This document shows positions 5,661-40,239 of a stretch of DNA of 64,000 nt, piece after piece. The DNA comes from Malus domestica (lineage: Eukaryota; Streptophyta; Magnoliopsida; Rosales; Rosaceae). The stretch is taken from the NCBI RefSeq assembly GCF_042453785.1, contig NC_091667.1:33100001-33164000 (forward strand), read 5' to 3'. Both the position numbers and the translations under genes were made by a program. The notes below the pieces were generated by a model. It saw only the letters and a program-made list of their open reading frames with translations. It was not told where the DNA came from and made no database searches. The first letter of the stretch is position 1; every line of letters starts with the position of its first letter.

Positions 5661-5714
5661 AGGACGACAACAACAACATCCCAAGCCTTATCTCACTTAG
5701 TTGTCTGATCCTAT
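5661..5714 (-). mobile_element. 3' tail remnant of an RTE-type LINE
   Basis: The sequence gacaacaacaacatcccaag followed by cttatctcacttag resembles the 3' terminus of plant RTE LINEs read on the minus strand. It is analogous to the longer remnant at 62945-63420. Only about 50 bp remain beside the next MITE. Confidence 0.4.
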
Positions 5715-5717
5715 TAA

Positions 5718-6071
5718 GGGCTGGTTTGGTATTGCTGTGCTTTGAAAAAAAACTGCTGTGAGAATAAGCGGCTGTGAAATAAAGCCAGTAGAGTGTTTGG
5801 TAAACTTTTTTGTGAAAGTGTTTTTGGAAAAAAAAGCAGGATGATAGTGTGTCTTTTCATTAAAGGAGCACTATAGCTCCGTGTGCTTTGAAAAAACTGG
5901 TTTTTTTCAAAGCAGCAAATAGCAGCTTCAGCTTTTCCTTTGATTTTCAGCTTATTCTCACAGCAGCTTCCAAAATAAGCCATTTTTTTTCAGTTTACCA
6001 AACACAAAAATGACCCTCAACTTTTTTTCACAGTGGCTTTTTTTAAAATCACCTCAATCCCAAACGGGGCC
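5718..6071. mobile_element. Tourist/Harbinger-like MITE, 354 bp
   Basis: The left end GGGCTGGTTTGGTATTG and the reverse complement of the right end GGCCCCGTTTGGGATTG are terminal inverted repeats. The element is flanked by TAA at 5715-5717 and 6072-6074. A 3-bp TAA/TTA target duplication and G-rich GTTTGG termini are typical of PIF/Harbinger-derived MITEs. Confidence 0.82.
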
Positions 6072-6731
6072 TAAAACATTTAAGCTTGTGGAATCTCTTT
6101 GAAATGTTTTAAGAGCCTTGGGAAATATTTAAGAGTTTATCTTTAATATGAAAAAGCTTCCATGATGTTCCCCCCAATCAAGGAAGAAAATATCGGTAAT
6201 ATCGGAAATATCGGTAGTCCGAAAACACGGAAATATCGATGGAAATATCGGTAAAATATCGATATCGATAAAAATTACATGGAAACCACGGAAATTGTAA
6301 GAAAAACTTGGAAATTTTTAATGAAACTTTGTAGGATGTTTATTTAGTCAATTATCTATTAGTTTATCATAAAAAATTGGAAGGAAATGCATTGCATGAT
6401 GGATTTAACTTATTTAAGTTGATTATATAGCGAGCTGGCAAACATTGTGAGTGTAGAAAATATGTAGTAATTAATGAAAGAAGTTTAAACACACCATAAT
6501 CATTTATATATAATTAATTAGTACAATATTTGGAGGTTTTATTTAGGATATTAAAAAAAAAAAGGGAAGTGAATAAAATGATGAAGAATAATGTGCCGAA
6601 TTTGACACTTTAAATTTCTTACACATAAGAATAAGACTAAACTTTAATTTGGATGCCGATTATGTTTTTTCAAGTTTATATAAAGTAAAAGAATTGAATT
6701 TTGGAAACCAGGAGTGTGTCAATTGAATTTT

Positions 6732-7380
6732 GGCCGGCGTGCAAGGTATCAATCTCTTCGTCTCGTCGAGTAGTACAACTTTCCTTTTTGTTTCACTCAA
6801 TTTCGTTGAGTATTGAAAAAGTTATACTCATTTGAATCTTACCCAGTTTCCGGCGACCTCAGTGGCTTTCGAGGCAATTTCCGGCCAAACGACAATGATT
6901 CAGACGTCGTGTAAGGTACCATTCTCTTCGTCTCTTCGAGGGCTACAAATTTCCTTTTCGTTTCACTCAATTTCGTTGCGTATTGAAAAAGTTATACTCA
7001 TTTGAATCTTACCCAATTTCCGGCGACCTCAGTGGCTTTCGAGGTAATTTCCGGCCAAACCACGGCGAGTTGGCCGGCGTGCAAGGTATCAATCTCTTCG
7101 TCTCGTCGAGTAGTACAACTTTTCTTTTTGTTTCACTCAATTTCGTTGAGTATTAAAAAAGTTATACTCATTTGAATCTTACCCAGTTTCCGGCGATCTC
7201 AGTGACTTTCGAGGCATTTTCCGGCCAAACCACGACGATTCAGACGTCGTGTGAGGTACCATTCTCTTCGTCTCTTCGAGGACTGCAACTTTCGTTTTTG
7301 TCTTGCTTGATTTCGTTGAGTTTTGACAAAGTTATGGCCGTTTAAAGTGGGTGTAAATTTTCGGCCGAAATTCTGATTTT
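6732..7380. repeat. higher-order tandem repeat, 340-bp unit of two ~170-bp monomers
   Basis: Type A monomers begin at 6732 and 7072 (GGCCGGCGTGCAAGGTATC). Type B monomers begin at 6901 and 7241 (CAGACGTCGTGT). Both spacings are exactly 340 bp. Monomers share caatttcgttg and gttatactcatttgaatct. The last B copy decays after about 7320. The ABAB order shows that a two-monomer unit was duplicated as a block. Confidence 0.88.
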
Positions 7381-7397
7381 CTTCCTTGAGTGACTGA

Positions 7398-7449
7398 GTC
7401 CCACATCGCCCAGCGAGGGCAGTGAGCAAGCCAAAATTGCCTATAAAAG
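7398..7449 (+). promoter_or_regulatory. plant U-snRNA-type promoter: USE plus TATA box
   Basis: The sequence GTCCCACATCG at 7398-7408 is a perfect match to the plant upstream sequence element (RTCCCACATCG). TATAAAAG lies at 7442-7449. The 33-bp gap fits the Pol II-type spacing of plant U1/U2/U5 genes rather than the shorter Pol III spacing of U6/U3. A U2-like start lies 31 bp after the TATA box. Activity is not known. Confidence 0.72.
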
Positions 7450-7480
7450 GAACATTCACCTCCTCAGAAAGCTTGACTTC

Positions 7481-7535
7481 ATGTCTTGGTTGGCCCTTTG
7501 GGCTTTGATCAAATGTAGTATGTTGAGATTTCTCG
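7481..7535 (+). pseudogene. U2 snRNA-like 5' end (truncated or diverged)
   Basis: Starting at 7481, about 45 bases align with the 5' end of plant U2 snRNA as recalled from the family. TTGGCCCTTTGGGCT corresponds to the first stem-loop, and GATCAAATGTAGTAT corresponds to the branch-point recognition region. The GTAGTA core that pairs with intron branch sites is intact. After about 7525 the similarity fades, and no Sm site or 3' stem-loops were seen, so a full U2 RNA is not encoded. It lies inside the hAT-type element downstream of a matching promoter. It is probably a captured 5' fragment. Confidence 0.62.
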
Positions 7536-7880
7536 ACATATTAAGTATTTTTGAATATTTTATTACGATATTTTTGATAATTTTAAAAATATCGCGATAT
7601 TATCGATAATATTGTGATATTTTGATGAAAATTATTTGGATACTTAAAAAAATATCGGATCTTAAAAAAAATGATAATATCGACGATAGATCTTAAAAAA
7701 AACGATAATATCGATGAAATATCGTCGATATTATCGATTTTTTATTCCTTGCCCCCAATTCATCGAAAAGATAAAAGCTTTTATGATTATAAAGTTCCCT
7801 GTTTAATTGTTCCAAACAATGGATTGATGATCATCTCGAAATTTTTCAATGTGAATGTTTACTATATAAATTTGTGACGA

Positions 7881-8069: not shown

Positions 8070-8220
8070 TGCCCTCCCGTGTCATTCTGTTTGTGTGGTC
8101 ACGGTTAAGCCTCGTCAACATTTTATATTACTATTTATTTTTGTCTTATTCTCATTATAAAAAAATAATATAAAATGTTGACGTAGCTTAACCGTGACCA
8201 TACAAAACAGGAGGACAAAC
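8070..8220. mobile_element. foldback MITE, relative of the element at 57566
   Basis: GGTCACGGTTAAGC with CGTCAACATTTTATATTA on the left pairs with its reverse complement on the right (8158-8200). The core GTGGTCACG-TTAAGCC-CGTCAACA is shared with the MITE at 57566-57771. The outer ends are degraded and no exact target duplication was identified, so the limits are approximate. Confidence 0.68.
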
Positions 8221-8710
8221 ATTTGTTCATTGATGCTTCCTCGAAAAAGATGATAGTGACCTCCAATGTTATCTTACTGAAAGCTCCATTATATGATCTG
8301 TGATACCGTTGGATTTGTCTAGTTGATACTTACTGTTAGATTACTCGGTATGTCATTTGTAGTGATTCATCTTTGTTTTTCCACCCTTTCATGTTTCACC
8401 CGTAAAGTAGTAGTAGAAGTAGTCTTTGAGAATGTTGTAAAATAGTTGGATAGGTTGAGTGTTTCTGGACTAACAGAATAGTAATCAATTAGCTTTGGAC
8501 TAATTCTTTGGATTAAAGCCTGGATGTGTAGTTTTGCTTTGCTTTTTATATTTTATTTTAATCGCCCTCTTGCCGCCCATGTTCCCATGCATTTTCTTGG
8601 GGCAAAACCAAAGTATACAGATTCCTTTCACACTGAAGTTTCCTATGTCCATTCCTGGAAGACGTGTAAACGAGTGATCTAATTTGTATTGATTCCGTGG
8701 AAATTTTCAG

Positions 8711-8880
8711 GTCGACGGGCCGAGACCCACTCTAACAACACTGATACTGTTCCCACTTAACCATCTGCACAATCCTCAGGTGTGGGGTTTTATCACAAAA
8801 AATAGTTAGAGAGGGATATTTCTATTTAAAGCATTCTATTCTTCTCCCTCTGTCCGATGTGGGACTGAGGGTTCCAACAG
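8711..8880 (-). repeat. repeat-like block with a minus-strand USE and TATA-like motif
   Basis: On the minus strand GTCCCACATCG (8865..8855) is followed after 24 bp by TTTAAATAG (8830..8822). That is the short, Pol III-type spacing of plant U6/U3 promoters. The sequence beyond does not match any small RNA I recognise, and a run of T about 25 bp after the TATA-like motif would stop Pol III early. The block starts TGTTGGAACC on the minus strand and might instead be part of a short LTR or TRIM element. Confidence 0.4.
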
Positions 8881-9010
8881 ATTCATTGACTTGGTATCTA
8901 TAAGACCATTTTCTGGTGATTCAATTTTGTAGATCAATTAAGTATTTCTGTTCTTACATTGCTCTTAGTCTTTAGCTGCTCAATCATCGCTGACCAGTTG
9001 CGATCGTTTA

Positions 9011-12000
9011 ATGGCTGCTTCTTCTTATTCTGACATTCGTTGGAAATACGATGTGTTCATCAATTTCAGAGGGGAAGACACTTACGACAGCTTCATCAGC
9101 CATCTCTACGGAGCCCTGCTGCAGAAACAGATCAACACCTTCATTGATGCTGAAGAGCTCAGAAAAGGCGACCGCCTTCCCGAGCTCCTGACAGCGATTC
9201 AAGAGTCAAGGCTTTCGCTTGTAGTTTTCTCTCGAAACTATGCTCTTTCCACTTGCTGCTTGAAAGAACTCGTGGAAATCTTGGAATGCAGCTATACTAA
9301 GAACCAGATTGTGGTCCCCGTTTTCTACCAAGTTGATCCGGCTACCGTTCGTAAACTGAAGAACAGTTTCGCGGAAGCTTTTGCTCAGCACGATCTCGAT
9401 TGTAACGTTGAAATGGAGAAGGTTCAGAGCTGGAGATCCGCTCTTACAACAGCCACCAATATTTCCGGCTGGGATGAGCGAAACTATAAGTAAATTCTAA
9501 TTTGTTTAGTTTCCTATTAATTTTTGAGATTTTTGTAATGTTTAGGCATAAATTTTTTGTTTTAAATTTATGCAAAACGGTTGTAAAAATTCATTAGATC
9601 TCCATATGCAAGATCTATTGTTGCTTTTTGAGACTATTATATATCGTGAAAGAAAAAAATGGAAAACCTATGTAAAATCTACTTTCAATGAAACTAAAAA
9701 TTAAAAACTAAAGGCCAAAATTTGAAAACTAAAAATTTAGATTAAAAACAAAATAGTTATCAAAACGACCCAATAATTATTATTTGGTGTTGTTATTATA
9801 TTGTTTTTAATTTTGACAGGGATGATGCAGAGCTTATTGAGGAAATTGTGGAAGATGTTTTTACGAAATTGAAGCAATTCTCATCAACATCAAGCAAATA
9901 CGACGTGTTCATCAGTTTCAGAGGGGAAGACACTCGCAGGGGCTTCGTCAGCCATCTTTACAAAGCTCTGTGTCAGAAATCAATCAACACCTACATTGAT
10001 GCCAAAGAGCTTAGAAGAGGCGACCCCCTTACCAAGCTCCTGATAGCGGCTCGAGAGTCAAAGATTTCGCTTCTAATTTTATCTGAAAACTATGCTTCTT
10101 CCACTTGGAGCTTGAAAGAACTCGTGGAAATCTGGAAATCCAAGTATACCAAGAACCAGATTGTGCTCCCCATTTTCTACCAAGTTGAACCATCTGATGT
10201 TGGTGGACTCGAGACAAGTTTTGCGGAAGCTTTTGCTCAGCACGATCTCGATTCTAACGCCGAAGTGGAAGTGGTTCGGAGATGGAGACTGGCTCTTAGA
10301 ACGACCCCCCATTTAGGCGGCTGGGTTTCGGGAGACTTTAGGTAAATTCTAAACTGTTTTAATTTCCTATTATTTTTTGAGATTTTTTTAAAGACCATTA
10401 GATTCCTATATTGCAAGATCTAATTGTTGATTTTTAGAACTGTATTATACCATGAAAGAAAAATTGAATAACTTGTTTGATAACTATTCTGAGTGAAACT
10501 AAAACTTGAAAACCCAAAATGTTTAAACTCAAAATCTAGATTTAAAAAAAAAAATATTAAAACGAGATAATTACCAAAACAACCCATTAATTATTATTCG
10601 ATGTTGTTATTATATTGGTTTTTAAACTTGACAGGAATGATGCAAAGCTTATTGAGAAAATTGTGGAAGATGTTTCTGGGAAATTGATCCACATCTCACC
10701 AATGCGATCAATACATACAGGCTTGGTTGAAATGGATTCTCATGTGCATGAAATGCTATATTTATTAAATCCTGATGGAGTTAAAACGAATGATATTCGC
10801 GTTGTTGGAATATGGGGTATGGGTGGTATAGGCAAAACAGCCATTGCTAGAGCTGTTTATGATGAAATCGCTTGTCGATTTGACACTTGTTGCTTTCTTG
10901 GAAACGTCAAGGAGGGTTTCATGAAGCATGGCGAACTACATATGCAGAAAAAACTTCTATCAGGTATCTCAGGCAAGAAGGTGGGGACTTCCGACATATT
11001 GAATAAAGGTTTCCACGAGATGTTAAAAAGGCTTTGTCAGATGAAAAAAGTTCTTGTTGTTGTTGATGATGTGGACCAATTAGCTCAAATTGAAGCCTTA
11101 CTCGAAAAGCAACGTTTTTTGGGTGGTGGAAGTAGAATCATTATAACAACTAGAAATGTGCAATTACTACGTGTAGCTGATGTGGTGTATAGGCCCAAGG
11201 TTTTAAGTGATTATGAAGCTCTGGAACTCTTTGGGGTGTACGCCTTCGGAACAAACCAACCCAATATAGAATATGATCATCTTTCGAGGTGTTTCATACA
11301 ATATGCTCACGGTTTGCCATTAGCACTCAAAGTCTTGGGAGCTTATCTTCGTCAGAGAACTATAGACGAGTGGAAAAGTGTGTTACACAAATTAACAGTA
11401 ATCCCGCTAAGGGAAATTCATGATGTGCTTAAAACAAGCTTCGATGAACTAGATTACATAGAGAAGGAGATCTTTCTAGATATTGCATGTTTCTTCAAAG
11501 GGATGGATAAAGACTATGCTACCGCAATTTTGGACGGTTGTGGTTTCTATCCTCATATGGGAATAAGAGTTCTAATCGATCGAGCTCTCATAACTGTCTC
11601 ACAGTTGGGGAACCTGGAGATGCCTGATTTACTAGTGGAAATGGGTCGAGAAATAGTCCGACAAGAATCTATCAGAGAACCTGGAAGACGAAGTAGGTTG
11701 TGGAATTATAAAGATGTTCATCATGTGCTAACTCAAAATACGGTAAGAAATCTTTTTCTTATGCAATGTTTAGTAGAAAGCTTCAACTTTTGACCAAAAT
11801 GTATTTCTTAGGCCGGTTTGATAACCATTTTTGTTTCCACTTCTTTATTTTTAGTTATACTTTTTTTTAATAATTGAAAATTGAAAAATTACCGAACAAG
11901 TTATGTGTTTTCAGTTTTTAGGTTTCTAAAAAAAAAAAATCAAAACAAAAAGTTGAAAAATGAAACAAAATAATTATCAAAAGACTCCTTAAGAACACAT

Positions 12001-12840
12001 GCATTAACTTCATAATCTAAACTATGATTCTCTGTTTTTTCTTCACTTTGATTTGCACAGGCTACAGAAGCAGTTGAAAGCATAATCCTGGATTTGTCGA
12101 ACTCAGATAATGTATGCTTAAATGCTGAAGCTTTTGCTAATATGACTCGACTAAGACTTCTCAAGATCGGTCATAATCATTTCGGCGAACAACACCTGAT
12201 TGGGCACTTAAAGTTTCTTTTTCGTGAGTTAAGGTGTCTCTCCTGGCATGGATTTCCTCTTGAGTCTTTGCCATCCAACTGTCAATTCAAAAATCTTGTT
12301 GACATTGACATGCGATATAGTCTCATTGAACGACTTTGGGAAGGAATCAAGGTATGTACAATCATCATTTACATGTATATGTTTCTTTTAAATTTTTGGG
12401 TTTTGAGATGTCTTATTAAGTAATGCATGTTTTCTTGAATGTTTTAACAGAAGCTGGAAAAGTTGAAGTTCATCGATTTAAGTTATTGTCTATACCTTAA
12501 GGAAACCCCTGATTTCACAGAGATGCCCAATCTTGAGAAGCTAATTCTTCTAGGTTGTAGAAGTTTAGTTGAGGTTCACTCATCTTTTTCGACTCTTACA
12601 AACCTTGTGTTATTGAATCTGAGCGGGTGCGAAAAAATTAAGATTCTAGCTGGCAGCATATGTATGCCATCTCTCAAAACCCTTGATCTTTCTGGCTGCT
12701 CGAGTCTTGAGATGTTTCCAGATACTCTAGAAGTTATGGAGGAACTATCGGAGCTTAATTTATCGGGGTCAAAAATTAAAAACCTACCCTTGCCAATTAA
12801 AAATCTACATGGGCTTCGTATTTTGGGCCTAGATGATTAA
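9011..12840 (+). CDS. TIR-TIR-NB-ARC-LRR disease-resistance protein with truncated LRR
   Basis: Proposed exons are 9011-9489, 9820-10341, 10635-11742, 12061-12351 and 12451-12840, all with GT-AG borders and joined frames; the product is 929 aa. TIR1 covers about residues 12-150 (YDVFINFRGEDT, putative catalytic Glu86 in the STCCLKELVEI segment). A short linker (DDAELIEEIVEDV) leads straight into TIR2, about 186-330 (YDVFISFRGEDT, Glu260). NB-ARC follows: P-loop GMGGIGKT 395-402, kinase-2 VLVVVDDVD with Asp478-479, SRIIITTR, GLPLA 560-564, and MPD 663-665 where MHD is expected. Exons 4-5 encode the start of the LRR, ending at a TAA. TNLs normally have one TIR and several hundred more LRR residues. 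TIR domains in this family are NADases and the LRR senses effectors. This copy has a doubled signalling end and a shortened sensor end. The start is the first ATG before the TIR. Confidence 0.82.
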
Positions 12841-13210
12841 GGAGTCTTCCAAACAGCATTTGTCAACTTAAATCCCCGATTTATCTTTCTCTTTCTGGTT
12901 GTACAAACTTTGAGGTGATTCTAAGCATTGTAGAATTCAGAAGGTGTGTAGAGCTCCGGCTTGGGAGTTTACACCACCTCCTTACCTGTTGCTCGTGGGT
13001 TTTTTCCCACTGGTTTCTTTCGTTGGCTGTGTGCAATTTGTAATTGGGTTTCTTTTCTTATAATTATGTTGTGTTGGTATGAACTTACCTTTTTCTCAAA
13101 AAAAAAAAAGCATTGTAGAAAATATGGAAGGATTAAGAGAGCTTTACTTGGATTGAAAATCTATCAAAGAGCTTTCCCTCTCGATTTAACGGCTTCAAGG
13201 GCTTGTTATT
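12841..13210 (+). pseudogene. decayed continuation of the TNL leucine-rich repeats
   Basis: Just after the stop at 12838-12840, another frame reads LRSLPNSICQLKS and YLSLSGCTNFE, standard TNL LRR sequence. A small indel at about 12838 has therefore shifted the frame. The LRR resumes after the retroposon at 12936-13107 with SIVENMEGLRELYLD, followed by in-frame stops near 13154 and 13187. These lesions mean the ancestral gene had a longer LRR and that the tail is no longer under protein-level selection. Confidence 0.78.
12936..13107 (+). mobile_element. retroposed insertion with poly(A) and 13-bp TSD
   Basis: A 172-bp segment ends in a run of A and is bounded by the identical 13-mer AAGCATTGTAGAA (12923-12935 and 13108-13120). 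It interrupts the LRR reading frame in the middle of SIVEN. A poly(A) tail plus a target duplication of this length indicates L1-type retroposition, either a 5'-truncated LINE or a SINE. The TTTTTTCCCACTGG motif resembles plant LINE 3' regions as I recall them. No coding frame is present. Confidence 0.85.
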
Positions 13211-13327
13211 AAGAGGTGTTGTCAAGTGAGGATTTGAGAGGATTTTAATAGACTTATCTAAGATTTCATAAGATTATGTAGAATTCTTTAAAATCCATAT
13301 AGATTTTAGAATATTTGGGAAGATTCA

Positions 13328-13403
13328 GGGTAAGGCTAGCCGACATTCACCTCTCTCAGAGCCTGCGTAAAGCGGGAGCCTTATGCACTGGGTACGACCT
13401 TTT
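13328..13403 (+). mobile_element. 5'-truncated Au-like SINE
   Basis: The body ends AGCGGGAGCCTTATGCACTG then GGTACGACC and a T run, which is the characteristic 3' end of the plant Au-type SINE family as I recall it. It is flanked by TTTGGGAAGATTCA at 13314-13327 and 13404-13417, a perfect target duplication. Only about 75 bp of the 3' part is present. Confidence 0.78.
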
Positions 13404-13419
13404 TTTGGGAAGATTCATA

Positions 13420-14055
13420 TACTATTGATTTTGATAGATTTTGCAGCGCTGAATCTTGACCATCAAATAAATCAAATTGTGATAAATGTACATTGATCAT
13501 AAACTGATCAAATGAAACTGCATTTGGTTCATCCTTTGGAGCTTCATCCCTTGGAGCCGAAAAAAAAATCAACATTATCACATAAACCCAACTCCTTAAT
13601 GATCCTCAGCTGCATGCCTTTCCAGTTTCCAGTCCTGCTTCCTCCCCACTTTAATCTTATCCCTTTCCAATCCCTGCTAATCTCTCTCTTCTGACTCTCT
13701 CTTTCACTCCTCTTCCTTCACAACCCAATTCCCAATTCTCCACACATGAACCCATGTCGTAGAAGGGTGATTAGAAAATACTTCGAAAAAGCTCAAAAGG
13801 GTAAGTGGAAAAAGGGAGAAAGAACAAGAATTGATCGGTGCGTGAAAAAAAAAAAAAAAACTAAATATGTGACTAATTGGGACCCAACGACTCTACTACA
13901 TATGAGAAATGATGCAACCCAACATCATTTTTATCCATAAATGATGCGACCCTGCAATGAAAATTGAAGAAAAAAAAGAGGTCTTGGATTTTGATCAAAG
14001 TTGGACCTTTCTACTAGTGACTAGTGAGTACTACAAAAGAAAGGAGAGGTCTCAC
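13420..14055. other. spacer between convergent TNL genes
   Basis: No coding exon for either TNL was recognised here. There is a CT-rich stretch near 13675-13715 and an A-run at 13846-13860. The LRR exons expected for the minus-strand gene are absent. Confidence 0.5.
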
Positions 14056-16033
14056 TGTATTATGAGTTAACACATGACATGACGAACATTTTCATTGTTT
14101 CACAACCTACTGCGCCTCCCCGATTCTTTGGTAGATTCTTGGCGGACGATTTCACAACCCATTTCCTCTAGTAAATCTTGCATCTCCAGTATACCGTCAG
14201 ATGAGATAGCTACAAGAGCTCTACCAACTAGAACGTCTAATCCAGTATGGGGATGGAAGCCACAACCCTCCATAATCCTTGTTGCGTAGTCTTTTTTCAT
14301 TTGTTTAAAGAAACAAGCGATATCTAGAAATATTTCCTTCTGCAAACCATCTAGTCCATCAAAGCTTGTTCTAAGAACTTTCTGAATTCCCTTATGCGGG
14401 TTTCTCTTGATTTTCTTTAACTCATCTTTCCACACAAGTACACTTTTGTTATCGAGAAAAGCTCCCAAGACTTTTAGTGCTAAAGGCAGACCTTGAGCAT
14501 ACTTTATGAAATGGCTTGACAGATCATTGTATTCTCCCATGGGTTGTTTTGTACTGAAAGCATACTGCTTAAAAAGTTCAAGAGCCTGATCATCTTTTAA
14601 CAACTCGGGCTCATATATCTCATCAACTCTACTTGGTGATTGTTTATCTCTGGTTGTAATAATGATTCGACTTCTGCCACCAAATGACAGTTTCTTTCCA
14701 ATTAAGGCTTCAATTTGGGCTGAATTGTCGACATTATCAAGAACAAGTAAAAGTTTTTTCTTACCTAACCTTTCCGACATCACCTGGAAACCATAACTCA
14801 AAATGTCCGAACTCCCAACCTTCTTGTTTGTGATACTAGATAGAAGTTCTGCCTGCATATTTACTGGTGCTTCACTTGCATCAACCGCTGGGAAACGTCC
14901 CTTGACATTTTCAAGAAAGCAACTACCATCAAATTGATGTTTGATTTTGTCATAAACAGCTCTAGCAATGGTGGTTTTGCCTATACCACCCATACCCCAT
15001 ATTCCGACAAGGCGAACACCATCCACCTGAGGACATAACAGCAAATCCATTTTCTGTAAGTGGGGATCCATTCCAACCAAGCCATTCTTTTCACTTGATG
15101 ATCTGTTGATCAATTTCTTGAATATACCTTGTACAATGTCCTCAATAAGCTTGGCATCATCCCTATGAAATTTTAAAAGGAGTATAAAAAAGGAGTTAGA
15201 GTAAGCCATAATTTCGTACTATTGCTAGTAAGATATGTATTGACAGTTTGACATACTGAACTAAAACTTAATTTAGTTCTTTAAGTCCAGCTAGAATTTA
15301 CTTTAACCTGCATATAAAGTCTCCATTTTCTGCATATTTGTCAATTTTTATGTTTGTGACTATCTTGTTAATCAGTTTGCTCTTAACTTTTCATAGATGA
15401 CAAAGATCTAGGCGGGTTACATGTTGTACTAGCATCATAGATATGTATCAACAATAATTTTTCGCTAAACTAAAAGCCTAAAACTAATTAATTAGATTAT
15501 AAAGAAGTGAGAGTACTAAAACTAGTTACTTGTAATCTCGTGAGTCCCAGCCAGATAAATTGGCTGCTCTAGTTAGAGCGGATTTCCAGCTCCGCAGCTC
15601 TTCCATGCCGGTGTTAGAATCCTGTTCCTGTTTAGAAAAACTTTCTGCAAAACTTTCCTGGAGTTTACGAACATGAGTTGGACTAACTTGGTAAAAAAAT
15701 GGGCACCACAATCTGCTCCTGTGTATCCATGCATTCCAGGATTTGGACAAGTTCTTTCATGCACCATGTGGAAGAAGCGTAGTTTTGAATAAAAACCACA
15801 ATCGAAAGCCTTGAGCCATTAATAGCTGACAGTAGCTGTGAAAGGTCGTTGCCTTTTCTAAGCTTTTTGGCGTCAATGAAGGTTTTGATTGAGTTCTGAA
15901 CCAGAGCTTTGTATAGATGGCTGACAAATATCTTGCGAGTGTCCTCGCCTCTAAAATTAAGGAAGACATCATATATCCAATGGCGGGCGGGGCCAGATGA
16001 AGAAGAAGAAGGATAAGCCATTAGCAAGCTCAA
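14056..16033 (-). pseudogene. TIR-NB-ARC gene, frameshifted and truncated
   Basis: Two exons are recognised on the minus strand: 16033..15530 (TIR) and 15162..14056 (NB-ARC). The TIR has YDVFLNFRGEDTRK and STWCMKELVQIL, with the catalytic Glu kept. The NB-ARC has GMGGIGKTT, kinase-2 LLLVLDNVD (Asn in place of the second Asp), SRIIITTRD, GLPLA and MQD instead of MHD. Three lesions are visible. An extra base in an A7/T7 run (15693-15699) shifts the TIR frame just before the YQVSPTHV motif. TGA at 14102..14100 replaces the Trp codon expected after GRRSRL. A repeated CATGT at about 14075-14085 shifts the frame again before a good splice donor at 14055. No LRR follows. It converges on the TIR-TIR gene. 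The TIR frameshift could be a sequencing error; the other lesions are less easily explained so. Confidence 0.8.
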
Positions 16034-16359
16034 GATTGATTGCAGCTGGTGAAAGATGATCGGCTAGCCTACTAGTTGCAAAGCAAAGCACAAGTTTGAT
16101 TCATGTTTCATGTTTCATCCTTGGAAACATCGTGAGCATCTGTCTGTTTTTGGCTCTTTCTCTGTTTTTTCCCCTTTGCTTTGGGGTTTATGAACTACAA
16201 TAAACGCACACGCACACGCGCACGCACATATATAAAGTATAGAATCTAAGATGAAATGCCTACAATATCCAAATACTAAGAAAACTTCAAAAGTTGGAGA
16301 CATTTTTTGGGACAAATTACTTACATGTTTTGTTGTGATTTTTGCTCTTTGCATGTTTC

Positions 16360-22120: not shown

Positions 22121-22560
22121 CTTTGTCAAATCAATTACATCAACTAATTTAGGTCTGAATTTTTTAAGTATGAAATTATGCATTTTCTTGTAACATTGAT
22201 GTAACTTTTAATATTTTTCATTATTTTCATAAGAAATTTACTATAATGTTTTTTCCTATATTGAAAAAAAGTTTAAAACCGGTACAAAATGGAAGGTCAT
22301 ATAACTCTAGAAATATATTAAATTACAGGAAGAAGGAAAAGTCAATTAGAAAAAAAAATATTAAATCCTTTTCATAAAAATAATAAATAAATAAATTACA
22401 TCATCCCGAACCATAAAGGAATACAGAAACGAACAGCTCGACAACTCGAAACACTTTTTTCTTCTTCTTCTCTTTCCTCCTTCAATTCCTCTGACTGTCT
22501 CAGTTCGCAGAGATTCACTCTTAAACGAACTCCAAAATCTCAATCTTTATGTCGTTTTAG
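21318..22560. other. intergenic DNA and probable promoter region of the kinase gene
   Basis: AT-rich, with an (AT)n run at about 22090-22118. A CT-rich stretch (22445-22485, cttcttcttctctttcctcc) directly before the kinase start resembles plant 5' leader sequence. No other gene was seen. Confidence 0.5.
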
Positions 22561-22568
22561 TCCCCACG

Positions 22569-24491
22569 ATGCGCCAATTCCTTCACTCCCCATCGCCATC
22601 GCCCGCAGCTAGTCCTCAGCCTCAACCCCACGTCAGCAGCCGCTTCCCCCACCCTCTCGCCGCCGCCTCCGCCACCACCGCCTTCTCTCTCCTCCTCTTC
22701 CTCCTAGTCTGCTTCCGAAAAATCACCCGGAAGCGGACTGCCCCGGAATCCGACTCCAAGCCCCCCCACCGGTACTCCTACTCCGTCCTCCGCCGAGCGA
22801 CCGACTCGTTCTCTTCGACGCGCCGACTCGGCCAAGGCGGCTCCGGGTCCGTGTTCTTCGGCACAATCCCACACACCCACCAAGACGTTGCCGTCAAGCT
22901 CATGGACTCCGGGTCGCTCCAGAGCGAGCGCGAGTTCCAGAACGAGCTCCTTTTAGCTTCCAAGCTCGATTCACCGCTCGTTGTCTCGGTGCTCGGATTC
23001 TCCTCCGACCCCAAACGGCGGCGTATGGTGCTGGTTTACGAGTTTATGAGGAACGGGAATTTGCAGGACGCGCTGCTGAAGAGGAAGTGCCCCGAATTGA
23101 TGGAGTGGAGGAAAAGATTCTCAATTGCCGTTGACGTAGCGAAAGGGCTGAGATATCTTCATGGGTTGGACCCGCCGTTAATCCACGGTGATGTGAAGCC
23201 GAGTAATGTGCTGCTGGACGGCGGCTTCGCTGCCAAGGTCGCCGATTTCGGGCTGGCGAGGCTGAAATCGGAGAATCAGGTAGTGATTGAGATTGATGAC
23301 GCGCCGAAGAAGGAGGAGCTGGAGAGCAATGGCGGGTGCGACTATGGGTCCGTGGTGGAGGAAACTGAGAGTGTGATGACATCTGGGTTTGATGATTTGA
23401 ACGTGGGTGTTGATCAGTCACCGGAGGATTTAGCGAAGGGTCCTGTTTCGGTTTCACCGGAGACTTCGGTGACACCGCCGTCCCCGGTGTCTCCAGAGGG
23501 GAATTTGGAGGAGGGTGGGAAGCAGAGGGTGAATAGGGATTGGTGGTGGAGGCAGGACAGTGGGGTGAAGGACTATGTGATGGAGTGGATTGGGAATGAG
23601 ATTGGGGCTGATAGGCCGGTTGGAACTACTGCTTCCGGTTCAAGTAGCGAAATGGTTGGGAAATTTGAGAAGAAGAAGAAGAAGAAGAATACGAAGAAGA
23701 GGTTGGAATGGTGGGTGTCAATGGACGAGGAAAAGAAGGCGAAGAATTCTAACAAGGAGAGGAAAAGGCCTGCCAGGGAATGGTGGAAGGAAGAGTACTG
23801 CGATGAGCTTGCCAAGAAGAAGAAAAAGAAGGATAAGAAGCAATCAAAAGGAATGAGCTTTGATGAGAATGATGACAATCGGTGGGCACACGACGAGGAA
23901 TTGTATGCGGAGAGTAAGAAGAAGATCAAGAAGAGGAGTAGGAGCAAGAGTTGGGGGAGTGTGAGTAGTATTGATTGGTGGTTGGACGGAATGCGGCATA
24001 ATGCTAGCCATGATTCCGGGGAAATTCCAATGAGTGGCGCCATGAGTAGTACTCCGAGCATGAGAGGCACAGTTTGTTATGTTGCCCCTGAATATGGCGA
24101 CGGTGGTGATCCGTCTGAGACGTGGGATGTTTATAGTTTTGGAATTTTTTTATTGGTTCTTATCGCCGGAAGGCGCCCACTTGAGGTCACAAATTCGCCT
24201 CTGTCCGAGTTCCAAAGGGCAAATCTGTTATCGTGGGCGCGCCATCTTGCCCGTGCGGGGAAGCTTGTTGATCTTGTTGATAAGTCCATTCAGTTCTTGG
24301 ATCAAGAACAAGCGATCCTTTGCATTACCGTGGCATTGGTTTGCTTGCAGAAAGTGCCTTCTCGCCGCCCTTCAATGAAGGAGGTTGTGGGGATGCTGAC
24401 TGGTGAGTTGGAACCACCCAAATTACCGCGTGAATTATCCATTTCGGCTAAGTCACGCTTCCCATTTAAGTCTCATACAAATGTTCGGTGA
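22569..24491 (+). CDS. receptor-like serine/threonine kinase with split kinase domain (At2g45590/At4g25390 type)
   Basis: A single 640-codon exon. A Ser/Pro-rich N-terminus is followed by a hydrophobic segment (about residues 31-49, AAASATTAFSLLLFLLVCF), a likely membrane anchor. The kinase begins at FSYS-like RYSYSVLRRATDSF, with P-loop GQGGSG 88-93, VAVK Lys110, HGDVKPSN 206-213 and DFG 226-228. The activation segment is then interrupted by an insert of about 260 residues, Lys-rich with repeated WW pairs (RDWWWRQD, EWWKEEYCDEL, IDWWLDG), before GTVCYVAPE at about 500-508 and the C-lobe. This layout matches the At2g45590/At4g25390/At5g51770 family. HGD instead of HRD makes it a non-RD kinase. 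It probably phosphorylates Ser/Thr at the plasma membrane; the substrate is unknown. It shows no link to its neighbours. Confidence 0.88.
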   Translation: MRQFLHSPSPSPAASPQPQPHVSSRFPHPLAAASATTAFSLLLFLLVCFRKITRKRTAPESDSKPPHRYSYSVLRRATDSFSSTRRLGQGGSGSVFFGTIPHTHQDVAVKLMDSGSLQSEREFQNELLLASKLDSPLVVSVLGFSSDPKRRRMVLVYEFMRNGNLQDALLKRKCPELMEWRKRFSIAVDVAKGLRYLHGLDPPLIHGDVKPSNVLLDGGFAAKVADFGLARLKSENQVVIEIDDAPKKEELESNGGCDYGSVVEETESVMTSGFDDLNVGVDQSPEDLAKGPVSVSPETSVTPPSPVSPEGNLEEGGKQRVNRDWWWRQDSGVKDYVMEWIGNEIGADRPVGTTASGSSSEMVGKFEKKKKKKNTKKRLEWWVSMDEEKKAKNSNKERKRPAREWWKEEYCDELAKKKKKKDKKQSKGMSFDENDDNRWAHDEELYAESKKKIKKRSRSKSWGSVSSIDWWLDGMRHNASHDSGEIPMSGAMSSTPSMRGTVCYVAPEYGDGGDPSETWDVYSFGIFLLVLIAGRRPLEVTNSPLSEFQRANLLSWARHLARAGKLVDLVDKSIQFLDQEQAILCITVALVCLQKVPSRRPSMKEVVGMLTGELEPPKLPRELSISAKSRFPFKSHTNVR

Positions 24492-28480: not shown

Positions 28481-29152
28481 TCATCTAGATGGTGGAAGCA
28501 CTTCGGCTAGTTTCTGTTCCAGCGCAGAAAGATCGATACTCTCCAGATCATTCACCTAAGATGTATACAGTAAGAAGGATTGTAGTAATTTTAACGAACA
28601 CGGCAATTTCAAACATTCTTATACACAAAACCCCAAACAATATATTGACCAATAAATTAGGAGAACTTGATAAAGTACCTCGGACTGGATCGTATGAAGG
28701 AGTCTGTCATCTACTTTGGAGGAAACACAGCTCACAACACAAAGCCCTTGTTCAAGAAGCACTTCCAAAACCCTAGAAATAGAGAAGGGTAACCCTTCCT
28801 CTCCAGATCTGAAGCCGATGGTAGTACCGATCACGATTTGCACCCCACCGGAACATGGGTCGACTTTGAAACAGCTCAGCAATCCCCTATAGGAACTTTC
28901 ACCACCATGGTCATCAGAACTAGTACTAGAGCTACTTAGATTGGAAACCTTCTTCAGTTCAGCTCTCTTGGAGTCTAACCTCCTGATTCTGTTCTGGATG
29001 TGCTTTATATAATTCACAGCCTCGTTCGTGTGGTCAGATATCGAACGCTTTCCCTGCTTTCGAAAAGAATATATGTAAGTAACCCTAGTCATCGTTCTTG
29101 CAGCTAGCCACATGTTTTTTGTGTCTCTGTGTGCGTGTGTGTGTGTGTGTGT

Positions 29153-29191
<39 letters not shown>

Positions 29192-29492
29192 CCTTGATAA
29201 ATTCAGGAGGAAGTAGGGATCTAAGTGAAGCATGTAGGGTACCCATTTCTTTCCGTCTTTGCCTTTCATTTTCCCTATGCATCAACGTTTTGTTCTTCTT
29301 GTTATGATCATTAGAATTGTGATCATCATCCATCATATAGTCCAAAGTAACCCCTAATTTCTCAAGCCGGCCTTTTCCCCTGTCGCCATACCCACGAACT
29401 CTATGATCTTCTGAAATTGTGTGATCTTGGTGATGATGAGGATTAGATGAAATCTGGAAGACCAGCTTCTTGCTTTGGTGTAAAGGAAACAT
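28481..29492 (-). CDS. bHLH transcription factor, subgroup Ib(1)-like (bHLH36/118/120/125 relatives), copy 1
   Basis: Proposed exons on the minus strand are 29492..29193, 29053..28679 and 28555..28481, all phase 0, giving 249 aa. The start MFPLHQSKKLVFQ is chosen because the paralogue at 43113 starts MFPNSYHHDQSKDLVFQ. The basic region HRENERQRRKEM (residues 72-83) has the His72-Glu76-Arg80 set that reads E-box/G-box DNA. Helix 1 ends ..LLPPEFIK at the first intron, and helix 2 ([20 protein letters not shown]) follows. The C-terminal half has the ACT-like sequence of this family, and exon 3 is the short VNDLESIDLSALEQKL tail. It probably dimerises and acts in the nucleus. Target genes cannot be told from the sequence. 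Confidence 0.85.
29128..29188. repeat. compound (GT)n(GA)n microsatellite beside a splice donor
   Basis: On the coding (minus) strand it is (CT)n followed by (AC)n, starting only a few bases after the GTGTAC donor of bHLH copy 1 intron 1. It makes up over a third of that 139-bp intron. Confidence 0.9.
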
Positions 29493-29693
29493 CACCAAAA
29501 ATTCAGATACATTGAACAGTCTTTTTTCTATGAATTTTGCAATGGAGGATTAAAGAACTAGATATGATCAATCTTTGATGGGCCTAACTAAGATGCCAAA
29601 GATTCCTTTCTTTCTAGTTTGACACTCACTCTTCAGATACAAGATGACTGAGTACAGGTGAGAAAGAAGAAGTGACCTCACCGGCCCCTTTAA

Positions 29694-29873
29694 AAATTTT
29701 AAATTATGCTCGTTGGCACTGTTCTTATGCACAAAAGTAAATTGCATTCACATTTGGTGGATGTCATACCAAAATCACACATAAAATTTTAAATTATGCT
29801 CGTTGGCACTGTTCTTATGCACAAAAGTAAATTGCATTCACATTTGGTGGATGTCATACCAAAATCACACATA
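29694..29873. repeat. perfect 90-bp tandem duplication
   Basis: The 90-bp unit containing attatgctcgttggcactg and atgtcataccaaaatcacac occurs twice in a row (second copy starts about 29784) with no difference seen. It lies about 200 bp upstream of bHLH copy 1, in the likely promoter region. Confidence 0.92.
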
Positions 29874-32296
29874 TTATAAAGGGATACTTTGGATGCGGTC
29901 CTTAACTATCAATGTTTTTTTACTGAAACTTTGATGGTTTTTAACTTTTGATCGAAGTCCTTGACATTAATGTAATAATGTATTTTTATGTAGGTTATTA
30001 TATTTTTAAATTAAAAATAAAATTTGTAGTTATTTATACTAATAAGATTTTAAATGAAACCCATATTTTATGGGATTAAAAATATTAAACATGAATTATA
30101 CTTTCCAATATATTGTTTGTGTGTGTGTGTGTGTACATATATACATGGGTACGTTCATCAAAACTAACTAAAAAATTATTGTACCAAAGCATGGGTACAT
30201 TTTTCAAAAGCACATAAAAAAAAAGGCCTTAATAATATTATTAAATTTCTTCTATTAAACTTGACATGGATACATTCTCAAATCAACGAAATAGAATGTA
30301 TCTATATAAGGTTTAAAAATGGATTAGAGAAAAGATTGAATGAAATTTATATAAAAAAATGAGTACATTTTAAATTAAAAAAGGGTACATTTTTAACAAA
30401 ATGGTATATTTAAGAATGGATACATATAAGATTAAAAAATTGAATTTTTTTATAAAAAATTAATGGGTACAATCTTATTCTAATTTATTTATTTTATTTG
30501 GGAAATGTTTGAATTGAAAATTAATTAGGAGTTTAATAAGGGTGTGAATATTAAAACTCTAAATCATTTTCTTTTTTTATAAAAATTATGTAACTTACTT
30601 GTAATTCATTAATATATTAATCCTAGGAACTTTGATCAAAATCTAAAAACTAATAAGGTCTTAATCAATGAACATTAGAAACTAGGGATCGGAAACTAAT
30701 TTTTCCTATTATAAAAATGTGTTACTTGATGAGTGATCATTATATCTTAGTTATTAATATTATTATTTTTAATTAGAAGAATTTTAATTGATCCATTCTT
30801 TTTGGAAGATAAGTAATTAAGTATGTAATACAATGTATACTTTATTAATTAAGTAATTAAGTACGTAATTTAATTATTAAATGAGGATAATATTGTACAT
30901 GCATGCACTTGAACAGTACTTGGGGAAAGGTAGCAAATAATACAGCATAACGTCCAACAGTATCAAGAAGAAGATCTCCTTGGGCTCTACTTTATGAGTT
31001 GGCCGAAGGAGTTGTTGATACCGTGCATTTTGAAACAAAATTATTTTTATTGATGGTCCAAGAAACAGCTAAGCCGCTTCCCTAATTCTTTTTCCTGACA
31101 AAATCAAGCATCAAATCTACTATAATATGTATTTTTAGTGGTTATAATTGCGAGCTATAGATACTTATGTTATGTGAGGGAATAATCGTTATGAACCACT
31201 TAGGTTGCGATTACTGCTAATCAATTATTATTAATTTGTCCTTAGCAAGTACATTGTACAAGAAATTGTACACGAAAATCTTTACTAACCTTATCAGGAG
31301 GCAGACAGGCAAAGGTTTAAATAATTTTGCTTCGAGCTCACTAGGACTAAATACTTTTTAGGTTTGAAAGCTGCGTATACAAGGATAGTTCATAGAGAGA
31401 ACTAATTAAAAGAACAAAACTTCGGAAGTTCATTGTCATTAATTTATTGGTTTCTAAACAATGACTACTATTTGGTTATGGGCAACACATACATAATTGG
31501 GTCAGCTAAGTGCCTAATAGGCTACAAATGATTACAGCTTAGTCATAGGCAACATGCCATGATTAATGGTCAATTAAGCAGGCTGGGTTTTCTCCATGTC
31601 TCCACCATGGGTAATCAAATGATCAAAATTTTAGAAAAAAATTTGCATAGTTCTCACTACGTCATATGATATTGTCTATTCACTTAATTAAAACAAGTGA
31701 ACTTGTTTATTAATTTACTATATGGAATATCAATAATCCCTATATATTATAATACCTGAGTTACTAATACTTAGTAATGGTGTGATTTTCGCTCTCAAAC
31801 GTTTCTATAAAAGGGAGAAATTTTTCATTGTGCTTGAGTATAGGTGGTACACCACGTGTCATTATACAAGTAAAAAAAAATTCATTTTTTAAGTTATTAA
31901 TTTTTTCCGACAAGTTGATGGGATGAGAATGAGGATCATCTTCGGATTCTCTTTGGGATGGGAATAAGACGGTACTGTTTGCTTTAAGTTTATCATCAAA
32001 TCATAGTTACCTTACCAAACTATGGATTATCCAATAAATAAAGAGTAGTGTTATCACACACTAATTTTTAATTTTCATATTTCTCTTCATTTTTAGTTGT
32101 TGTATCGACTAAATTGAAAATAATCAATAATAAAAAATTAATAAGTCGATGTAAAAGATACAAAGAATTGTGTGAATAACACTATACTAAACAAAACATG
32201 TCTTTTTTTTTATATACATCATGCGTTACCATCTAGGGCCAAGGTAATGCTTGGACATATCACATCTGCATTGCTTTTTGTAGAAAATAAAAATAT

Positions 32297-32300
<4 letters not shown>

Positions 32301-32341
<41 letters not shown>
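32301..32341. repeat. (GA)n microsatellite
   Basis: About 20 uninterrupted GA dinucleotides. Confidence 0.95.
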
Positions 32342-32343
<2 letters not shown>

Positions 32344-32650
32344 TAGACTTTATGAACTTACAAATATTGAGATGGAAAATGCTTAGTCACGTGACCTAGT
32401 ACGTACTATATATCCCTACCAAAGTAAGCTTTAGTGTCCCGTATTGCAAGACCTAATCCCTCAACTTGAAATGGGTCTAGATCATGATGTCCTCAATATA
32501 AATTCAATCCGATGTCCCACGTTCATATGGTTTCGATTACTTGGAAAATTCCCCGGTATGGTCACAATTGGGCACCATGTTGTGAGCAAATTAAAAGCAA
32601 ATCGTTAGCTACTATCAAGCAAATATTGTCATTTAAAATGTCCGTGAAAT

Positions 32651-32814
32651 ACTCAGTATTACGGTGTAGTATTATTCATCTTCACTTGTAAATGAGAGAT
32701 CTTAAATTCGAATATCATAGATGGCGAATTCGATACCAAATTAGATTGTCCATAGTGTGGCTTAGCCGAACTTCTCCTCCCCTTAGTGTAAAGTATATTG
32801 TTGTACTAAAAAAA
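32651..32814 (+). mobile_element. tRNA-derived SINE with TSD
   Basis: The body starts near TTACGGTGTAGTATTATTC, continues CTTCACTTGTAAATGAGAGA and the degraded B-box TTAAATTCGAATATC, and ends GTGTAAAGTATATTGTTGTA plus an A-run. AATGTCCGTGAAAT (32637-32650) and AATGTCCATGAAAT (32815-32828) flank it as a target duplication with one mismatch. Confidence 0.8.
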
Positions 32815-34097
32815 AATGTCCATGAAATGCTGTATATTATTTAATATGTATTATTTATTGTGGATATGAACAAATGTAGATATTAGAGCATTCCAAATGG
32901 TAGATGCAAAATGTCTTGAAAGTAACATTATATATATTTTTTTGTTGCCGGAAAACTCTCTAATGAAGGAGATGTAAATTATTCATCTTTATCGGCAGAT
33001 GTAAATAAAAATTATATTTACACTTTTTTCCACCATTAGGAGGTGGATTCGCTAATCAAAGAGAAAAATAAATGAGATTAAATATACATTTTTCTCATTG
33101 GAGTTGAACTTATATATTAAGCATCTCCAAAGTGAGATATAAATGTGATTATTTTTCATCTCAAATTTGTAAATCTTCATTGAAGACAATGTTACATATA
33201 AAAAAACAGTTGAGATTTCCGTTACAAATACATATCAATCATCATAATTGAGGCGCTACCCTTCTTACACTATTTTTAAGAAGGAAAAATTAGGTTCCAA
33301 TCGTTGGTTACCAATGCTGGATGAATTAATCTTATTGATTTTTAGTTTTTGATCAAAATCTCTAGACTTTGTTCACATCATTTTTTTTTACTACTAATGT
33401 ATTTCCATGTCTGGTATTTTGTTTTTTAACTTCAAAATTTTAATTTCATGTTCAAATAAAAAACTAATTTATTTTCAAATTTATTCGTTGAAAAAGAATT
33501 GGTATTCAAAGCTAGGTAGTAGGTATTCATGTCTCTCTCTCTCCCTCCCTCTCTCTCTTGTTTCTCTCCCTACACAAACAACATACATTCATGGTATTGT
33601 GTAATGCGTATAATAGTTTTTCGCTTGTAGCTTATGTACCCATAAGCCTTTTCAGAATCTGCCCATATTAAATTGTGGAATTAATTTTAAATTTCATAAA
33701 TTGTTAGATTTAATTGTTTTAAATGATATAAAAAAAAGTTTGAAATGTATGGTGTATTAAGAGTTGGGGACTTAAGTAAAAGAAATTAGAACATGGAAGA
33801 TTTTAGTCTAAAGTTTGAATTGATTAGGAACCGCTTTCAAAGTGTCCATTTTAAGAATCAGATAATCACTTCTAATTAATCTTTAACCTTAATCTATCTG
33901 CACTTTCTTTCACTGATCGGCAACTGCCTAGCTACTTAGCAGTTGTTGGTTAGGATAATAGTCTTGATTTATTTATACTCTCACATTTGTATGTGTTGCA
34001 GCTGCAATATATACTAGTATATTATGACTGATGATCATCAACGCTTGCTCTCTTCTCTGTGTTTGCACTTGTTAGCTAGGCTGACTATAATAAACAT

Positions 34098-34266
34098 TTT
34101 TTTTAGTACATCAATATTTTTACATTAAGAGGAAGGGATGTTCAGCTAAGCCACACAATAGGCAGCCTAATTTGGTATCGAATTCGCCATCTACGAGATT
34201 TGAACTTAAGACCTCTCACTTCCAAGTGAAGAGGAATACCACCATACCGTATTACTGAGTGACAAT
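34098..34266 (-). mobile_element. tRNA-derived SINE with TSD (minus strand)
   Basis: On the minus strand it reads TACGGTATGGTGGTATTCCT, CTTCACTTGGAAGTGAGAGG, AAGTTCAAATCTC, then the same body as the element at 32651, and it ends in poly(A). TATAATAAACAT (34086-34097) and TATAATAAGCAT (34267-34278) are the target duplication with one mismatch. Confidence 0.82.
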
Positions 34267-35442
34267 TATAATAAGCATATTATTATTATTAAACTTAAAC
34301 AGATTTTTATTGCAGACTTGTACCTTATTAGGTCAAATCGGGTAGAAAAGGCAAAAAAGAAAATGAAGGAAAACTATCAAAAGTCTAGTTGGTAGAAATA
34401 TAAATATAATATGTAAAACCCACGAGTCCCATGATCCAAATATTATAATTGATTTCGTGTAACTTGTAACCCTTACCAACTATCAACCAAATAATTAACA
34501 GTCAAGGTCAACTTGGGCATGTATAATACCTAACTAACAAAATAAAACTACTTCAATCCTGCCGTTTAATTAGACGTTTTCATACTAGCGAATCATCGTA
34601 CGTAGCTTGAGCCTTGAGGCAATGACAATATCATCATGCAAGTGATCCATTACATGGGCCTTATAAATTGGTTTTCAAGTTTCAATGCCTTAACAATGTA
34701 GATTTTAGGTCATGTGCTCTCACGCTTTGGAAACATCTATAAGGAAACAACTTTTTTTTTTCTACTTAAACAACAAATTCAACAGCATTGTCATCATAAG
34801 AAGGACAATTGAAGTGAATCTAAGGTAAGTTTAATCATCTTCGGTTGGGTATTAACTTTCGCTCATTTTGTCCGAATTTTCTATGATGCTCTAAAAGCAT
34901 CTTATATTCCAAAAATTTTACTACTAAACTATAAAATACTAAGATCTAATTGCCAAAAATCCTAAACTATAAAATACTTTTGTGCACAGTAGAATTTTCG
35001 CATTTTGTAAAGCAAAGAAGAATTTTGATTAGGTTAAATAAATAAATAAAGTAAAAGAAACAAACTGGAGGGGGCATAGTGGAGAAAAGTTGTGGGTGGC
35101 TGGGTTGCAACTTGCAATGTTAATTTCAACACAATTACAGTGCCCAACAAGCGACTTTTTAAAATAGAGAGGCCATTAGCGAGGGCTGGGAAGAGAATTT
35201 TTGGGTGAATTTTTTATTCGAAGATCTAAAACCCTAAGTAACAGATAAACTACTTTGCCTTCTTTACCACTCTCAGAAAAGAAAAAAAAAAGGAAAAAAA
35301 AAAAAAAAACTTGAAGAGCGTTTTGAGTATTCTAATATACAATGTTTTCTTCACAGCAAAGAAATATGAGAGTTGGTCTTCCGTGTTTCATCTATTTATT
35401 CCTTCGACCAAAATAGAATCTCAGAAGATCTGATCTTGTCAC

Positions 35443-37839: not shown

Positions 37840-38345
37840 GCTACGCCTACTTTGCTCCTTGTAATCCAAAAGTCATCACTTTACTCATTGAAACCCAAAA
37901 TTTGCTTCATTTTGCCCCCTTGGAACTCTATTTTGATTCTTGTTTGCCCCCTAAAACTTGAAAGTCGTCTCTATAAAACTCAAAATGCGCTCCATATTGC
38001 CATAGTTCTGTTAGCTAGTGTTTTGTATGGTTTGATTTGGGTGAGCCAAGCTAATCAATTTCTTTTTTATTTTTGTCATCTCTTTAATTTCTTTTAAACT
38101 TAATATTCTTTTATTGTTGAATGTTGACACATACTGGAGATTTATACTCAAATTTATTGCACATGTGGCATAATCTTATTGGGTGTTGGGTCTCATATAT
38201 GTTTTAAGAGACGACTTATAAGTTTTAGAGAGAAGAGAGAGTCCACAAGTCAAAGTTGAACGAATTTTGAGTTTCAAGGAGTAAAATGATGACTTTTAAG
38301 TTACAAAAGGCAAAGTGAGATTAAAATGGAGTTCTAATAGGTGTA
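37840..38345. mobile_element. foldback (Mutator-like) element
   Basis: The left arm (CTTTGCTCCTTGTAATCCAA, AAAAGTCATCACTTTACTC, TTGAAACCCAAAATT, AAAACTTGAAAGTCGTCTCT) is matched in reverse complement by the right arm (CTTTGCCTTTTGTAACTTAA, AAAAGTCATCATTTTACTCC, TTGAAACTCAAAATT, AAAACTTATAAGTCGTCTCT). Arms are about 150-180 bp. No exact target duplication was found, so the limits are approximate. Confidence 0.7.
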
Positions 38346-40230: not shown

Positions 40231-40239
40231 GTCATTTTC

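Follow-up and report, generated by a model that had tools for sequence, protein, structure and literature searches.

The capture of genes by DNA transposons has mainly been studied for coding pieces, and mobile elements with a U2 head are represented by SINEU, the U1/U2-headed SINEs of crocodilians, SINEs being retroposed and beginning at the RNA start. The apple elements described here are like SINEU in that they are transposable elements with a U2 head, but they include non-transcribed promoter and flank and have hAT-like ends. They are also like the Pack-TYPE transposons, including Pack-hAT, in being non-autonomous and in combining constant ends with switching host-derived interiors; the abstract of that work, however, speaks of coding DNA, whereas the cargo here consists of snRNA promoters (PMC8903248). 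The word snRNA does not occur in the main text of that paper or in the accessible text of a 2026 review (PMC13317346). Dada transposons are likewise DNA transposons tied to snRNA genes, into which they insert with target-site duplications (TSDs) of 6-7 bp, but the accessible part of their description does not mention the carrying of snRNA genes (PMC3706591). According to the available sections of PMC9845283, the plant Pol II snRNA promoter consists of a USE with the consensus RTCCCACATCG and a TATA box at a spacing of four helical turns. The family studied here shares the exact USE consensus and the Pol II-type USE-TATA spacing, but unlike in plant snRNA genes, the promoter is mobile and in some lineages tandem, and what remains of the transcribed region is 45-94 nt for U2 and, for U4, ends near the start. 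A USE-type snRNA promoter element outside snRNA genes has also been described for the interface-induced MIRNA loci of Cuscuta, for which N. benthamiana yielded miRNA when the loci were intact but not when they were scrambled; those loci, however, were described as Pol III-type and not reported as transposon-borne (PMC10226582). The literature searched showed no account of snRNA promoters being carried by a DNA transposon; subscription journals and Repbase lay outside its scope, so that absence from print is unproved. The Pack-TYPE-like hAT element is known as a kind, and the snRNA-promoter cargo is a new variation.

Comparison of the sequences makes it very probable that the element analysed here belongs to a Pack-TYPE-like, non-autonomous, hAT-like family that carries DNA-captured U2 and U4 snRNA promoters and has been amplified. 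Its members share a left end of about 350 bp and an ATATCG-rich right end, with host DNA acquired between them. What was taken up at the DNA level is U4 promoter sequence and, probably in two separate events, the 5' part of U2 genes. The promoter adjoins the right end, pointing outward, in each class examined; the U2 module was amplified to more than 100 copies, and tandem duplication of the promoter unit is seen in several lineages. Capture may have occurred by faulty gap repair during transposition, and a hAT transposase may have mobilised the elements in trans. If the Pol II snRNA initiation machinery can be recruited, short outward transcripts would start with a U2-like head and extend across the right end. 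A working U2 RNA cannot result, the elements containing no more of U2 than nt 1 to about 45-94. The cargo is in this case the core promoter of spliceosomal RNA genes, and since the dicot snRNA core promoter is compact (USE and TATA), it is fully portable.

The window, a 64-kb stretch (C7:33100001-33164000) of the 651-Mb assembly in 19 contigs that was searched, contains the element with the features listed in the table. The CAAGG inverted ends and the 8-bp TSD of the preliminary description were recovered, the former as CAAGGAA/TTCCTTG and the latter as a perfect duplication. ATATCG repeats are also present in the left end, and the 170-bp units of the interior are about 85% alike. The 31-bp duplication (7658-7688/7689-7719) and the reading GATCAAATG for GATCAAGTG are present in the window copy and were seen in none of the 20 aligned relatives. 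No stop-to-stop frame of at least 120 aa in the ORF list overlaps the element, and in place of the captured coding sequence of a Pack-TYPE element, the cargo that we could recognise is the snRNA promoter with the head.

Features of the hAT-like element and its snRNA-derived cargo in the window
Feature	Position	Strand	Basis
Left target-site duplication CCCCCAAT	6171..6178	.	8/8 identical to 7752-7759
hAT-like non-autonomous element, 1573 bp	6179..7751	+	Termini and TSD, comparison with copies
Left terminal repeat CAAGGAA	6179..6185	+	Reverse complement at 7745-7751
Left-end module, ~350 bp, common to elements of differing cargo	6179..6531	+	91-98% identity, U2-type and cargo-unrelated elements
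3.5 tandem copies of 170-bp unit	6738..7335	+	Repeat comparison
USE GTCCCACATCG	7398..7408	+	Exact; consensus RTCCCACATCG (PMC9845283, available sections)
TATA box TATAAA	7442..7447	+	33 bp 3' of USE
U2 snRNA 5' head, stem-loop I remnant and GTAGTA (7515-7520)	7481..7521	+	Alignment, Rfam U2
Short hairpin ATGTTGAG/CTCGACAT 3' of U2 head	7520..7539	+	Similar hairpin there in aligned relatives
Right-end module, ATATCG-rich palindromes, including 31-bp duplication	7566..7743	+	Sequence, 20 relatives
Right terminal repeat TTCCTTG	7745..7751	+	Sequence
Right target-site duplication CCCCCAAT	7752..7759	.	Sequence

The exact USE with its TATA box 33 bp on is present as claimed, and the Pol II-type spacing holds by comparison with six U2 genes of the same genome, in which it measured 31-33 bp. 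As regards the U2-like start, the intact GTAGTA stood, and the position did not: the start comprises about 41 nt and lies 33 nt past TATAAA, not about 31. Plant Pol II snRNA promoters have the TATA box near -30 relative to the start. The distance to the head is 26 in five of the six U2 genes and 31 in the sixth, and 25-27 in 11 U2-bearing relatives; the larger value of the window copy arises because its subfamily (L009-L015) has about 7 bp of extra sequence inserted there. The head is identical to the 5' end of the U2 gene L029 at 29 of 37 aligned positions (score 19.5). It had been proposed that a likeness to U2 no better than chance would speak against the claim, but the score exceeds the maximum reached among the other 3556 tiles of 70 nt in the window (16.5) and that among 2000 mononucleotide shuffles (18.0), and the likeness is strong in the relatives. 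With Rfam U2, for which the cut-off is 46 bits, the window copy scored 17.6-17.7 (97 bases, E 0.05), the model beginning at the very first base of the head, and a scan of the window at the gathering threshold gave no Rfam match. This weak score would leave doubt if the window copy stood alone, and the relatives remove it. U2 in its complete form has 192 nt and includes an Sm site and a 3' domain, and the 5' part is all that aligns with confidence; with its approximately 41 nt, the window copy is no U2 gene. It is a worn member of the commonest U2 lineage and, with a head mutated and shifted by about 7 bp, a poor candidate for activity. The predicted RNA folding of 7481-7645 is far stronger than that of shuffles (z -6.17), and we did not use this as evidence because much of it stems from the right-end palindromes.

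A genome scan with RF00004 gave 46 scored matches, 32 of them over the cut-off. The best were ordinary U2 genes, some clustered on C13 at 11.50-11.64 Mb, and 12 of the 31 over-cut-off matches examined (C13:4120110 was left out) are family elements as judged by their right ends, with 47-76 bits (L044-L047, L049, L051-L054, L056, L058 and C1:20370245, which is L098). Elements L044-L047 and L056 comprise USE, TATA and U2 to about nt 94, followed by the ATATCG right end. U2 extends to about nt 61 in L049, L051-L054 and L058, and two promoter units about 61 bp apart are present in L049, L052, L053, L054 and L058. Shorter heads are found in L098 (46.6 bits), L097 (43.2) and L100 (37.1), in the latter two behind two or three tandem promoter units, some with a mutated USE; the unit of L100 has 78 bp. 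Perfect TSDs flank L049 (CTCCTACT, 1628 bp), L052 (ACATACAC, 1364 bp), L053 (CCTTCAAT, 1356 bp) and L054 (GTCTCAAC, 1684 bp). L044 (2316 bp, TSD GTATTAAG), in whose ORFs no transposase was evident by eye, has the same left end as the window element and is colinear with the chromosomal U2 gene L030 over about 475 bp, from about -380 to +94, at 76% identity. The colinearity stops at CACACGATATT, overlapping the element's own CGATATT repeat; the border thus lies at CGATATT, which U2 and the right end share. As non-transcribed promoter and flank are included, capture must have occurred at the DNA level and not via RNA, and it is by such relatives, colinear with real genes, that the proposed hAT-type element with a captured snRNA promoter and U2 start is supported. 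In our inference, U2 was captured twice and U4 once, and each captured promoter lies at the right end and faces outward. Two U2 captures are assumed because L044 and L049 have unlike spacers (about half alike, compared with 85% between L044 and gene L030) and unlike borders, and because a loss of 3 nt from the head is private to L044, the other lineage (L049) having kept them; replacement by recombination could mimic such a double capture.

The U4 cargo is found in L164, which has the family right end, the TSD GGGAAGAC on both sides, and a USE-33-TATA promoter that is identical to that of the U4 gene L168 at 60 of 66 positions, ungapped; of its left end, the first 82 bp were compared (L170). 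L168 itself scored 103 bits with Rfam U4, second best of 41 scored in the genome. Two U4-type units in tandem, 60 bp apart, precede the same right end in L169, the USE-TATA gap of the first unit being 30. L166 (1203 bp, TSD ATCACACC) has both family ends around an unrelated interior without USE. Constant ends with differing interiors, as in Pack-TYPE elements, are hence seen in L044, in L049, L098 and the window element, in L164 and in the unrelated L166, and L164 and L166 together with the U2 elements indicate that the family swaps its cargo and took up snRNA promoters from at least U2 and U4.

When the whole element was used as query (40 scored of 4537 candidates), at least 30 places, the window included, matched more than 1.4 kb of its 1573 bases, and 20 copies were fetched and aligned on the basis of this similarity. 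As determined by script for 21 copies including that of the window, TSDs agree at 8/8 positions in 17 and at 7/8 in two, and none was detected in L016 and L023; by eye, L023 appears to have an 8/8 TSD and L016 does not. hAT elements prefer the target nTnnnnAn, and the commonest bases across the 17 TSDs, GTTATAAC, conform to this preference. Further 8-bp TSDs were found in L044, L049, L052, L053, L054, L164 and L166, and none was found inside the stretches fetched for L046, L047, L051, L056 and L058. The terminal inverted repeats are short with CA..TG ends, as in hAT elements, the subfamily right ends reading CCTTG, CCATG or CAATG. L016-L022 and L026 have a USE-TATA spacer that differs from that of the window-like copies, and in L023-L025, L027 and L028 the middle of this second spacer is inverted (GAGGGCAGTGAGCAAGC vs GCTTGCTCACTGCCCTC) with the gap of 33 kept, except in L023 (4 bp lost; 29 by eye). 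Conservation of USE and TATA across copies, which had been named as a check, was borne out: the USE core is exact in 16 of the 20 copies, and TATAAA is intact in all of them except L022. The four USE changes are single, all different, and concern L023, L024, L025 and L028; in 10 further inverted-spacer copies, fetched without regard to the promoter, both USE and TATA are exact (10/10). The 3' box has an AGTNNAA-like consensus. AGTTAAA follows the hairpin at 104-124 nt in each of the 19 copies, of 20 searched, that matched the hairpin pattern, and it also occurs at the end of the real U2 gene L031, and it is absent from the window copy and, by eye, from L044 and L052; as evidence for a 3'-box-like signal this motif is weak, being short enough for chance.

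Genome-wide, a 32-nt pattern of U2 head and hairpin gave 133 matches at up to two mismatches and the reversed-pattern control none. Among the 100 heads listed, 67 were new, and 61 of these were fetched in 60 stretches, blind to the promoter. In 58 of the 61, a USE precedes a TATA box by 33 bp, with no more than one mismatch in either motif; of all 61, USE is exact in 53 and has one mismatch in six, and among the 58 heads with the 33-bp gap TATA is exact in 51 and has one mismatch in seven. The three exceptions are L117 with a deletion and one head each of L121 and L128 with an element inserted (by eye). By eye, L121 and L128 represent family members inserted into the U2-like head of others, at the same 8-mer GCTATGAT and in opposite orientations; the U2 head may be a preferred site of insertion, a possibility of relevance to the route of U2 capture. 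The family left end has 867 matches in the genome (control 0). Among 100 exact left ends listed, the 3 kb around them contain an exact USE-TATA on the same strand in 25 cases and on the opposite strand in none. When listed U2 heads are counted as well, at least 32 left ends have the module at this distance and in this orientation, and 68 are without a detected module. As for an autonomous partner, no PF05699 match lay beside a listed left end (150 scored of 1495, by eye). The promoter pattern TCCCACATCG-N20..45-TATAAA has 433 genome matches against 5 in the control. Among 100 of these listed, the gap is 32 or 33 in 85, and by spacer string 42 U2-type and three U4-type places, that is 45, are family members; a fourth U4-type place is the U4 gene itself, and 34 more belong to two other repeat types (25 and 9). 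With 45 and 34 of 100 listed places being repeats, a genome scan for snRNA-type promoters would mostly find repeats. The elements form a natural series of nearer-intact U2, worn U2, U4, tandem units and inverted spacer, which can inform on what an snRNA promoter needs and on whether mobile copies found new noncoding RNAs.

Whether the promoter has been useful to the elements is a matter of two readings, both of which start from DNA-level capture. The more cautious explanation is that snRNA promoters were captured and copied by chance and that their intactness reflects recent descent from few sources, a reading whose probability we consider evenly balanced. It accords with private variants, which in 90 copies are not rarer in USE and TATA than elsewhere (12 vs 93, p=0.28), and with the carrying of unrelated cargo by L166, but it requires that snRNA genes, a small class, were captured about three times with one and the same orientation, and that the promoter was tandemly duplicated repeatedly. 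Alternatively, and tentatively, the promoter would be useful to the element, for example through open chromatin at the right end or through an RNA, so that captures recur and the architecture is selected; this extends the capture explanation and is not a different origin. U2 (probably twice) and U4 gave the same outcome, orientation and place, and tandem units arose in L049/L052 (61 bp), L100 (78 bp) and L169 (60 bp). A working promoter would further accord with the exact USE consensus, the Pol II-type spacing and the gene-like distance from TATA to head in 11 relatives. The gap of 33 was mostly kept despite turnover and inversion of the spacer, but gaps of 32 (in 5 of 34 window-type spacers listed), 30 and 29 do occur. 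All 11 U2-bearing elements measured have an exact USE core, vs two of the six U2 genes (L029 and L030; the core is changed in L032, L034, L036 and L037), but a USE change is present in 4/5 inverted-spacer copies of the 20-copy alignment. In the 90 copies, variants found in at least two copies are rarer in USE and TATA (2/64 group-columns vs 51/337, p=0.013), and depletion of shared but not of private variants is expected if source elements, and not dead copies, are constrained; however, a stricter 2x2 comparison of shared and private variants gave p=0.14, and part of this sample had been found with a query containing USE/TATA. A first divergence table gave mismatches of 1.2% for USE, 1.5% for TATA, 3.1% for the spacer and 4.9% from TATA to head, and the variant test is preferred because this table pools sub-subfamilies and indels distort its row for the 40 bp upstream. 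Left ends without a detected module (68 of the 100 listed) have also multiplied, which argues against a need for the promoter. The signs of selection on the promoter architecture are suggestive, and we consider it unlikely, though worth stating, that the family represents a selected, mobile, outward-facing cassette from at least two snRNA classes whose active copies would, at numerous sites in the genome, initiate short RNAs of the Pol II snRNA type or transcription into adjacent genes.

An origin at the RNA level, in which a hAT element would have received a U2 pseudogene by retroposition or else an snRNA-derived SINE, is highly improbable. Some U2 copies in the genome do lack a USE where one would be expected (L035 with a poly-A tract, L039, L043, L048 and L050), but USE and TATA lie upstream of the head in 11 of 11 U2-bearing loci measured, and L044 holds about 380 bp of non-transcribed U2 flank, and with promoter and flank present we reject this origin. 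That the window stretch resembles USE, TATA and U2 by chance or by convergence, for which the 17.7 bits of the window copy alone might have spoken, has a negligible probability in view of the 37-76 bits of the relatives, genome counts against control counts of zero, and the colinearity with real genes.

The DNA-captured snRNA promoters of the hAT-like family are accompanied by other repeats with USE motifs. The repeat of L089, L090 and L091 has a USE-32-TATA arrangement, accounts for 25 of the 100 listed places by spacer ending, and resembles by eye the end of an LTR retrotransposon followed by a primer-binding-like site, which suggests that USE promoters are present in further transposon classes. 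The repeat of L092, L093, L094 and L099 has a USE-33-TATA arrangement and accounts for nine listed places by spacer string; neither U2 nor any other Rfam match at E up to 1 was found in these four. The exact core TCCCACATCG is present twice in the 64-kb window, and its second occurrence, in a repeat of about 183 bp at 8697-8879 on the minus strand, stands 24 bp (a Pol III-type gap) before TTTAAATA. Scoring of 40 among 905 candidates gave at least 43 matches to this repeat, some of them paired at a distance of about 410 bp, and it is perhaps a TRIM-like small terminal-repeat element with a Pol III snRNA-type promoter. By eye, MITE-like inverted-repeat insertions lie at 5714-6072 and 8100-8210 of the window, and a stretch resembling the latter is also found beside the element of L096. 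ORFs inspected by eye at 8969-16063, 22395-24491, 28619-44053 and 51082-51696 of the window resemble TIR-NBS-LRR resistance-type, receptor-like kinase and bHLH-like genes.
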